34,873 nt of DNA from contig NZ_NKUB01000028.1 of the NCBI RefSeq assembly GCF_003207895.1, positions 1 to 34,873 of the forward strand, written 5' to 3'. Below the pieces are notes generated by a model. It saw only the letters and a list, made by a program, of their open reading frames with translations, was not told the DNA's origin and did not search any database. The stretch is from Komagataeibacter swingsii (lineage in GTDB: Bacteria > Pseudomonadota > Alphaproteobacteria > Acetobacterales > Acetobacteraceae). The number at the start of each line of letters is the position of its first letter. The first letter of the stretch is position 1. Both the position numbers and the translations under genes were made by a program. Positions 1 through 33,209 of this stretch are shown here, piece after piece.

Positions 1-433
1 CCGGGGATAAGGGTGAAGCGGACCAGGTTACCCAAGGCGTCGGTCATGGCGATGATCTTGGTCGACCATCCTGTCACACTGCGTCCGATCGCCTGATTTT
101 GGGTCCCCCTTTTGCGCCCTGGCCATGACGGTGAACCCGCACCACCGTGCCGTCGATCATCGCGTATTCCATGTCGGCGTCGTCCGAGACAGCCTCGAAA
201 ATTCGCTGGAAAACCCCGGCTTTCATCCAGTCGCTGTAGCGTGAGTAGACCGAGTTCCAATGTCCGAAATATGTCGGCAGATCCCGCCATGGACTGCTGG
301 TCCGCGCAATCCATAAGACCGCCTCGATGAAAAGGCGGTTATCCTTCCCGCTGCGGCCCCGATCCGTCTTCTTGCCAAGGCACAGGGGTTCCATCTTCGC
401 CCATTGGGCATCTGTCAGTATGAAGCGATCCAT
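1..433 (-). mobile_element. IS5-family insertion sequence, partial
   Basis: The first 433 bases hold the 5' part of an IS5-family element, read right to left and cut by the left window edge. The call rests on the two-frame transposase described in the next entry. The outer end must lie a little beyond 433, before the palindromic repeat that starts near 488. I could not identify the terminal inverted repeat or a target duplication, because the other end is outside the window. Confidence 0.75.
1..433 (-). CDS. IS5-family transposase, frameshifted, 3' end outside window
   Basis: This is a DDE transposase that would cut and join the ends of its own element. The first frame starts at 433 (ATG, with AAGG five bases upstream) and stops at 74 after 119 codons. 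It contains the N-terminal IS5 domain (LTDAQWAKMEPL, then WRDLPTYFGHWNSVY) and the first catalytic Asp in YAMIDGT. In the -1 frame the protein continues from about position 108 to the window edge as TQNQAIGRSVTGWSTKI and then MTDALGNLVRF, the usual IS5 continuation. The A-rich/G-rich run at 104-113 sits where the frames meet, so a programmed -1 frameshift is more likely than decay. The two-frame layout is typical of the IS427 group of IS5. The remaining catalytic residues lie outside the window, so activity cannot be judged. Confidence 0.8.
104..113 (-). other. candidate -1 ribosomal frameshift site
   Basis: On the minus strand the run AAAAGGGGGA lies in the reading frame GCA-AAA-GGG-GGA. Slipping back one base here converts the 119-codon frame into the downstream transposase frame and gives a continuous family-like protein (AKRGTQNQAIGRS). 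The position and direction of the shift come from the sequence. That it works as a frameshift signal is inferred from how IS427-type elements behave. Confidence 0.55.
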
Positions 434-487
434 ACAGACCTTGAATCACATCCAGATGCTTCAGAAAAGCATAATTCCCAACAGGCC

Positions 488-543
488 CCAAAAAGGCGGC
501 GTTCTTTCGAAGCTTCCTGAAAAAAGCTTCACCAGAAACTTTT
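488..543 (+). repeat. cloverleaf palindromic repeat, copy A (truncated)
   Basis: This is a partial copy of the repeat family best seen at 33035-33114, in reverse orientation to that copy. It keeps one arm of the GC-rich hairpin (AAAAAGGCGGCGTTC), the AAGCTTC-type hairpin and one outer arm (CCAGAAACTTTT). It lacks the other outer arm and the first half of the GC-rich hairpin. It lies between the IS5 element and the copper cluster, upstream of a gene on each side, so it is not simply a terminator here. Confidence 0.7.
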
Positions 544-4651: not shown

Positions 4652-4730
4652 AAAAGTTTTTGGGTGCTGCCTTTTTACCAAAAGGCGGCGTTCCTTGAAG
4701 CTTTTTGAAAAAAGCTTCACCAGAAACTTT
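4652..4730 (+). repeat. cloverleaf palindromic repeat, copy B
   Basis: This is a full-length copy in reverse orientation to the one at 33035-33114. The outer arms are AAAGTTTTTGG (4653-4663) and CCAGAAACTTT (4720-4730), with one mismatch. Inside are a GC-rich hairpin (GCTGCCTTTTT with AAAAGGCGGC) and an AAGCTT-type hairpin. It lies between two convergent genes. Confidence 0.8.
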
Positions 4731-4762
4731 CATTTTTTATTACTGCACGGTTTTCGGGCGCA

Positions 4763-26164: not shown

Positions 26165-26211
26165 GGAACGCCGCCTGTTTGAAACAAGGCGGCGTCCCAT
26201 AAAACTTTTTC
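26165..26211 (-). repeat. cloverleaf palindromic repeat, copy C (partial, degenerate)
   Basis: This copy keeps the GC-rich hairpin (ACGCCGCCTGTTTGAAACAAGGCGGCGT in pieces: arms GCCGCCT and AGGCGGC) and one outer arm (AAAACTTTTT). The AAGCTT hairpin and the other outer arm are gone. It lies just after the reductase gene that ends at 26220, and the hairpin could end that transcript. Confidence 0.55.
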
Positions 26212-29258: not shown

Positions 29259-29312
29259 GCGGGTATATCCGCAAAAGAAGGGCGTATCTGAAGTTACCTG
29301 CAAATCAAGAGG

Positions 29313-29389
29313 ACGTTTTTGGTAACGCTTTTCCAGAAATCTTCAGGAAACACCGCCTTTCTGAAAACAGGCGGCACCCGAAGACCTTT
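29313..29389 (+). repeat. cloverleaf palindromic repeat, copy D (diverged)
   Basis: This copy has the same orientation as the one at 33035-33114. The GC-rich hairpin is clear (ACCGCCTTT with AGGCGGC), the outer arms are present but changed (CGTTTTTGG and CCCGAAGACCTTT), and the middle hairpin is eroded. It fills the gap between the convergent LysR and tannase genes. Confidence 0.65.
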
Positions 29390-32925: not shown

Positions 32926-33034
32926 TCTGCGGCCCAGATGCCCAAAACCGGTTTACGACATACTGGAAAATAAAGCAGTTCTTGGTAAGAGACTGTTTGA
33001 AAAGTCAGATCATGATAGCGCTTTAAAATTAAAG

Positions 33035-33114
33035 AAAGTTTTTGGTGAAGCTTTTTGCAGAAGCTTCGAAAGAACGCCGCCTTTTTGAGAAAAAGGCGGC
33101 ACCCAAAAACTTTT
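33035..33114 (+). repeat. cloverleaf palindromic repeat, copy E (reference copy)
   Basis: This is the best-preserved copy. The terminal arms AAAGTTTTTGG (33035-33045) and CCAAAAACTTT (33103-33113) match perfectly. They enclose hairpin 1, GAAGCTT (33047-33053) with AAGCTTC (33061-33067), and hairpin 2, GCCGCCTTTTT (33076-33086) with AAAAAGGCGGC (33090-33100) around a 3-base loop. The whole could fold as a three-way junction in DNA or RNA. Hairpin 2 could also work as a terminator. It lies between two genes in the same direction. Confidence 0.85.
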
Positions 33115-33209
33115 ATTTATCAACGAATTGTTTTCGACACGATCAGGCTTCAAAATGACATGGGGCGGGATTGTCTTGTGTTATCGCCCGATTACAGGAG
33201 AAACCGTTC

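Follow-up and report, generated by a model that had tools for sequence, protein, structure and literature searches.

The window analysed here is a stretch of 34,873 nt from Komagataeibacter swingsii (contig NZ_NKUB01000028.1), part of a genome assembly of 3.73 Mb in 113 contigs designated G000 below. A BCSC_C-type cellulose synthase gene is encoded in the window, and neither Rfam matches nor tRNA or tmRNA were found in it. The squalene-hopene cyclase is 95-97% identical to those of Komagataeibacter sp. FXV3, K. europaeus, and K. diospyri, as fits the genus. Both contig ends (34082-34861 and 1-433) lie within IS5-type transposase genes; multi-copy insertion sequences (IS) are expected to break short-read assemblies and so to leave IS genes at contig ends. 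The window was searched using a profile of 30 copies from G000, the window's own copy at 33035 included, which returned five copies at E ≤ 1e-3 and no sixth. These are the five cloverleaf palindromes of one shared plan named in the original prediction.

The core at 33035..33114 (33034-33114 by the profile; forward strand) consists of an outer 11-bp stem, an AAGCTT hairpin, and a GC hairpin. It lies in a tandem gap according to our own gene calls, and its bases 2-80 were matched at 100% in two other places of the genome. The mobile element copy around it covers 32989..33147 on the same strand. TAA stands before its left end GAGACTGTTTGAAAA, which is intact at 32989-33003. On the right, erosion of the terminal repeat makes the limit approximate, and the flank is similar, in diverged form, to the right arm found in other copies. 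Convergent gaps hold a core at 4652..4731 (reverse strand), with terminal arms unrecognisable by eye, and an eroded core at 29311..29389 (forward strand). The remnant at 26165..26211 (26166-26209 by the profile; forward strand, tandem gap) keeps the GC hairpin and the 3' half of the outer stem, and in its fold, next to a bulged base, a changed G pairs with a C that has also changed. The fifth copy, 489..542 on the reverse strand (first placed at 488-543), is truncated in its GC-hairpin loop by an IS (locus L398) whose end is at 488. The IS end (1..488, reverse strand) is from an 821-bp IS5-family element and carries an ORF at 74-433 with DUF4096 and the terminal repeat GGGCCTGTTGGG. The left neighbor of the fifth copy is this IS gene, and the divergent-gap placement noted for the window is due to it.

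Folding of 33035-33130 gave the cloverleaf as predicted (-35.7 kcal/mol, z -5.9), and 4652-4730 also formed a cloverleaf (z -3.7 on one strand and -5.3 on the other). In the remnant 26165-26211, only the GC hairpin forms (z -4.7 and -5.0); the eroded copy 29311-29389 reached z -1.5, and 488-543 was unstable by itself (z -0.25).

The family is real and abundant. Stretches totaling 1.6 Mb from four species contained 114 merged copies (40, 37, 20, and 17) at E ≤ 1e-3, vs 0 in the reversed control, which extrapolates to about 160-370 copies per genome. The 80-base cloverleaf stood as a unit of structure but not as the entire shared sequence. Most of the 30 best copies share sequence past the 80 bases, for about 46 bp more on the left and 36 bp on the right, as far as terminal repeats, with GAGACTGTTTGAAAA at the left and its complement at the right; one side has been lost in a few of them (e.g., L018, L022, and L016). 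With one mismatch at most, GAGACTGTTTGAAAA occurred 93 times in the genome, and the reversed-pattern control gave 0. Terminal inverted repeats GAGRCTGTTTGAAAA are present at both element ends. Twenty-six of 29 distinct full copies were 162-164 bp long, the others being 154, 160, and 160 bp; full copies are non-coding, and their size rules out a transposase gene. The 80 bases had also been taken for the complete mobile unit, which is untrue of young copies.

The 3-bp flanks were identical in 18 of the 29 distinct full copies (17 TNA and one TTG), a perfect duplication being missing in the other 11, and the chance level for identical 3-bp flanks is about 1 in 64. TNA target duplications are typical of the IS5 family. 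Three sites (L010, the window site, and L031) were examined for empty counterparts. The L010 copy is absent from the relatives G009 and G011, leaving a clean empty site: the flanks are 9 nt apart in G009 vs 176 in the query and 7 nt apart in G011 vs 174. Read by eye from the alignment rows, since mafft alignments of entire gaps were unusable, the G000 junction is CGTATTTC-TAA-element-TAA-TGACAGG and its G011 counterpart is CGTATTTCTTGCAGCGGGG; the two rows are equal in length minus one TAA and the element. No clean empty site was found at the window site, where G010 carries an eroded copy and G009 and G011 other sequence, or at L031, which is complex. Because of the GAGRCTGTTTGAAAA ends, the TNA duplications, and the clean empty site, the element is a miniature inverted-repeat transposable element (MITE) with IS5-type ends, and the proposal of a non-coding mobile element of this type was supported. 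As a non-autonomous MITE, mostly of 162-164 bp, with GAGRCTGTTTGAAAA ends and TNA duplication, it spreads across Komagataeibacter. By eye, copies at L048, L025, and L030 lie inside or adjoin older copies of the same element, and an IS lies within a MITE copy at L081.

The transposase partner was sought in the collected loci and the 1.6 Mb of stretches from the four species. No transposase with matching ends was found at the DDE_Tnp_1 loci of G000, at 30 end loci inspected in this genome, at 28 further end loci (27 in relatives) read 170 bases inward, or at 50 DUF4096 loci of six relatives, and no IS-sized pair of GAGRCTGTTTGAAAA ends in the collected loci or 1.6-Mb stretches proved to be a partner. 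A 1033-bp pairing in L047 was rejected as a chance pairing, and 1272-bp pairings in L007/L045 as two adjacent MITE copies. Terminal repeats of the IS427/IS1031 groups of the IS5 family begin with GAG and are accompanied by a TNA target duplication, both features shared by the MITE. A DDE_Tnp_1 IS of G000 ends in GAGCCTGATCCGAAAG, carries a TCA duplication, and has ends of the MITE's type, which makes it a cousin as far as its end sequences go; no IS with GAGRCTGTTTGAAAA ends was found at the loci searched. Separately, L076:1289-1937 (G000, contig C32) holds an IS5-type element of about 650 bp with GAGCCTGATCCGAAAGTTTTT ends, a TCA duplication, and an internal stop, possibly a cousin of the missing partner.

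As had been predicted for related genomes, each of the 19 genomes tested from the genus gave matches; outside the genus, 2 of 41 genomes gave one weak match each. The exact GAGRCTGTTTGAAAA end occurs in 18 of the 19. It was counted 63 times in G000 and 24 times in the next genome (G014), and for this reason a recent burst of the element in G000 looks likely; many near-identical copies are present there. Five plasmid records carry the window element, four from Komagataeibacter and one from Novacetimonas, in a search that possibly left out the own genome. Novacetimonas is presumably counted within Komagataeibacter by GTDB. Using a copy from Acetobacter musti (L141) as the query, 19 of 299 genomes of the family matched, in 6 of 102 genera, 7 of the 19 being from the own genus. 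Among the named loci, five copies lie within 21 kb of A. musti; those of other Acetobacter and of Gluconobacter yielded no copy at E ≤ 1e-3.

Five cores in other genera (g97 and g55; L475, L476, two in L477, and L482) are close to the Komagataeibacter core, and by eye none has terminal repeats. They would fit an origin in which the 80-bp cloverleaf was mobile alone and the 162-bp form, with its IS5-type ends, came from a capture at a later time. This order of events is unlikely, given that a right-arm trace, TATCAAT, remains by eye in one L477 copy and that the exact end is found in nearly every genome of the genus, as above.

Genes were called using a small codon-usage predictor written for the analysis. 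Among the 114 copies, 69 lie in convergent, 40 in tandem, and 2 in divergent gaps; the other 3 are found at the edge of a stretch, and no copy falls mainly within a gene. Gaps of at least 80 bp contain a copy in 66 of 130 convergent, 39 of 414 tandem, and 2 of 190 divergent cases, counts that are partly circular because the copy itself lengthens the gap. Convergent gaps make up 16-18% of intergenic bases and divergent gaps 23-29%. In tandem gaps, the median distance from the upstream stop to the copy was 29-54 nt, and 27 of 40 copies were oriented against the genes (27:13, one-sided p 0.019), a weak bias that is reversed in G002 (2:4). A hand count of the 27 young full copies flanked by called genes gave 13 convergent, 13 tandem, and 1 divergent. 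Since they already shun divergent gaps, harm avoidance explains at least part of the placement, and placement alone is no proof of later retention; copies landing in promoters or genes would be removed.

For one conserved convergent gene pair, the gap holds the element or what remains of it in 16 of the 18 genomes that could be resolved (G016 could not). These copies are partly shared by descent, and they occur in both orientations and at different places, which suggests repeated recruitment of the element at this pair. In the same gap of G017 (L355), the sequence before the AAGCTT hairpin now matches the outer arm and gives a stem of about 16 bp, perhaps through palindrome perfection by template switching or through selection favoring a longer hairpin. 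Half elements reduced to a single hairpin were noted at L169:12845-12905 (K. nataicola), L122:12178-12227 (K. melomenusus), and L123:8902-8948 (K. xylinus), one of them grown to a perfect palindrome.

What is conserved after insertion was examined in 72 complete cores. The 9-base end motif was found on neither side in 59 of them, by an exact string match in which a once-mutated end is scored as missing. On the right side of these 59 end-less cores, 9 of 10 positions hold 0.22-0.90 bits and are T-rich; on the left side, 5 of 10 positions hold 0.23-0.81 bits and are A-rich, i.e., T-rich on the other strand. Beyond about 10 tail bases on each side, information was at most 0.18 bits. A bare core as a sharp insertion edge is not favored, about 10 T-rich or A-rich bases being retained on both sides. 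Twenty-two copies combine a core identity of at least 92% to the consensus with scores below 14 for both arms; on this scale, shuffled flanks reach about 7-9, and arms that are intact about 36-41. Uniform decay would not be expected to give this pattern of a good core beside decayed arms. The core and its tails may be under selection, may be homogenised, or may be mobile alone, and because the T-rich tails are kept, selection appears favored. In most complete copies, the terminal arms have been lost to decay, and what stays is the cloverleaf with about 10 T-rich bases on either side.

The rival explanations are not mutually exclusive. Under a purely selfish MITE lacking any host function, insertions elsewhere would be harmful, and the good cores would be young or homogenised by recombination. 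The avoidance of divergent gaps by young copies agrees with this. So does the window site at 33035, where G010 (L200) is strongly eroded and the core of G000 (L199) matches copies of its own genome, a contrast that fits homogenisation or re-insertion and for which gene conversion or re-insertion is possible. Nevertheless, the explanation is improbable, as the 22 well-kept cores beside nearly shuffled arms are unlike uniform decay, the limit of conservation takes in the T-rich tails, and the stems change more slowly than unpaired bases.

The last point comes from diverged copies, in which stems differ at 0.14-0.18 and unpaired bases at 0.27. Across 54 diverged cores, the cloverleaf pairs were formed in 87.1% of cells, and both-sided changes were found in 31 cells vs 12.6 in shuffles (0 of 500). 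All five pairing measures were above the shuffles (0 of 500 for four and 1 of 500 for one). When the pairing was slid, at most 63.5% of cells were paired and the covariation score was at most 0.090 vs 0.143, but two of the slid controls equaled or beat the both-sided counts (18 pairs vs 16 at slide -2, and 31 cells vs 31 at slide -1). A separate count over 112 cores gave 48 both-sided paired changes vs 19.6 (0 of 300). Contrary to these pair counts, RNAalifold predicted no pair on the 54 diverged cores. Paired changes could alternatively come from template-switch repair of imperfect palindromes.

A standard terminator scan flagged 0 of the 5 window copies. The standard rule found hardly more sites in the window than in shuffled sequence and may thus be ill suited to this genome. 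By our own terminator rule, 37 of 132 convergent ends with the element fitted vs 26 of 212 without it, with 7 and 8 in the respective shuffled sets. The role as a termination signal, raised in the original prediction, is the likeliest function as judged from position, conservation limits, and structure. We infer from these sequence features that the core was domesticated as a two-way transcript end, probably a terminator. After insertion behind a gene, a cloverleaf with two T-rich tails would be selectively kept, and it would end, or protect the end of, transcripts from both sides.

The repeats may instead act as DNA, by relieving supercoiling or as sites for nucleoid proteins or gyrase between convergent genes, with termination secondary. 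Convergent gaps accumulate positive supercoils, and cruciform-capable palindromes that receive IS at their tips are compatible with extrusion. A role at the DNA level is nonetheless quite unlikely, in that two-sided T-rich tails point to RNA and the motif at the tips is nearly confined to the element, so that IS targeting could proceed without extrusion.

The hairpin-seeking IS is the one met at the left end of the window: 821 bp, IS5 family, with DUF4096 and DDE_Tnp_1 domains. All 8 strong copies in G000 sit in a cloverleaf hairpin loop by eye; by the profile threshold the count is 8 of 9, as L399 (E 0.01) narrowly fails and a weak ninth copy passes. A search of the genus gave 97 places in 13 genomes, of which 75 were retrieved and 22 left out; 3 of those retrieved were dropped because the end was not reached, leaving 72 IS ends from 12 genomes. 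By the profile, 51 of the 72 fall inside the element: the AAGCTT tip received 28, the GC tip 14, and other parts of the element 9. The element itself accounts for 0.48-1.30% of the four sampled genomes, and no match to the 821-bp IS was found in two of these four, G018 and G002. By genome, the ends inside the element were 8/9 in G000, 13/16 in G011, 12/14 in G015, 9/12 in G010, 6/9 in G009, 1/3 in G007, 1/2 in G016, 1/1 in G014, and 0/6 in G003, G005, G008, and G013 together. Both tips were hit in five species (G000, G009, G010, G011, and G015). The element is therefore the main landing site of the 821-bp IS.

At 69 of the 72 IS ends, the flank closes with CA or TG. The second IS end was found in 8 of 17 loci searched, one of them a duplicate, and 5 of the 7 distinct two-ended loci have a 2-bp CA or TG duplication. 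The tip motif, T5(CA or TG)A4, occurs in the element in 48 of 51 cases in the 1.6 Mb, with 3 outside. Because it is nearly confined to the element, sequence and structure are inseparable as the target, and the data fit either reading of the tip or an extruded cruciform. With its CA/TG target, the 821-bp IS inserts mainly into the tips of both hairpins, and we infer that these tips offer it a harmless landing site. The flanks of six other IS candidates in G000, one with a left flank of only 2 bases, gave no element match better than E 0.098. Several DUF4096-type IS of relatives (L489, L494, L502, L504, L505, L509, L516, and L521) have a TA duplication after C (CTA), unlike the CA/TG target of the 821-bp IS.

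Target specificity of this kind brings REP sequences to mind. According to the portions of PMC1525189 drawn on here, REPs are targeted by IS1397, ISKpn1, IS621, ISPa11, ISPpu9, ISPpu10, ISRm22, and ISNm1106, the last being an IS5-family case. The present repeats share with REP/BIME a high copy number, an extragenic position, a palindromic form, and use as specific IS landing sites (PMC1525189, same portions), as would suit a REP/REPIN-type element whose mobility depends on a REP-associated tyrosine transposase. That identity is nevertheless very improbable. REPs/REPINs are defined, in the text available to us of PMC3733652, by a palindrome of 20-40 bp with a GTAG or CGTC tag; here the core measures 80 bp and has two hairpins, inspection by eye showed neither tag at the stem ends, and TNA duplications and IS5-type terminal repeats do not fit. 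The REP membership suggested earlier is not supported; nothing in the sequences inspected links the element to REP. Relative to the REP/BIME examples in those portions of PMC1525189, the target here is the two-hairpin core of a MITE that has IS5-type ends, and the IS differs from REP-targeting IS in its CA/TG target, its use of both hairpin tips, and its occurrence in five species.

Uptake-sequence terminators are those of Neisseria and Haemophilus. DNA uptake sequences form terminators and, in the part of the source used, resemble the present family as dispersed repeats with hairpins at gene ends, whereas the origin here is a transposable element and not an uptake signal (PMC2267715). Known bacterial MITEs include SPRITE, RUP, and BOX of Streptococcus pneumoniae, and a terminator potential has been suggested for SPRITE, as excerpted from PMC10969869. 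Like these, the present element is short, non-coding, intergenic, and present in many copies with inverted ends; as far as that excerpt describes them, it is unlike them in that the inner cloverleaf outlasts the terminal repeats, that about half of the convergent gaps of at least 80 bp are occupied, and that the element is genus-wide and found in some other genera (PMC10969869).

The repeat was found described or named nowhere in the literature searched (openly licensed PMC articles), and by our searches the MITE family is so far undescribed. The many copies, the conservation of paired arms with covariation (under the reservations given above), and the lack of a named element covering the repeat in Rfam or in the papers searched all agree with the original prediction. 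The parts are of known kinds; their combination and quantity are unusual, and a MITE as an IS target, with such precision at both tips, is new to our knowledge.

The spread of a MITE, retention of its cloverleaf at gene ends, and landing of an IS at the hairpin tips form the best explanation, to which we assign a probability of roughly 65%. A more far-reaching version, tentative and at somewhat less than even odds on the sequence evidence, is that one transposable element supplies a large share of the termination signals of convergent genes and is resupplied by independent insertions, its tips, perhaps as cruciforms, being the main IS landing pad. If true, an insertion delivers a ready-made two-way terminator whose mobility ends then decay, and a single structure is shared by two mobile elements and the host. 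A selfish element would have become a standard part of gene expression, with every stage on view, from the newly inserted copy to the cloverleaf alone, and many natural replicates per genome for watching its domestication. The IS that prefers hairpin tips offers a target choice that is open to testing. For these cellulose-making bacteria, the family would be relevant to genome stability, annotation, and terminator design.
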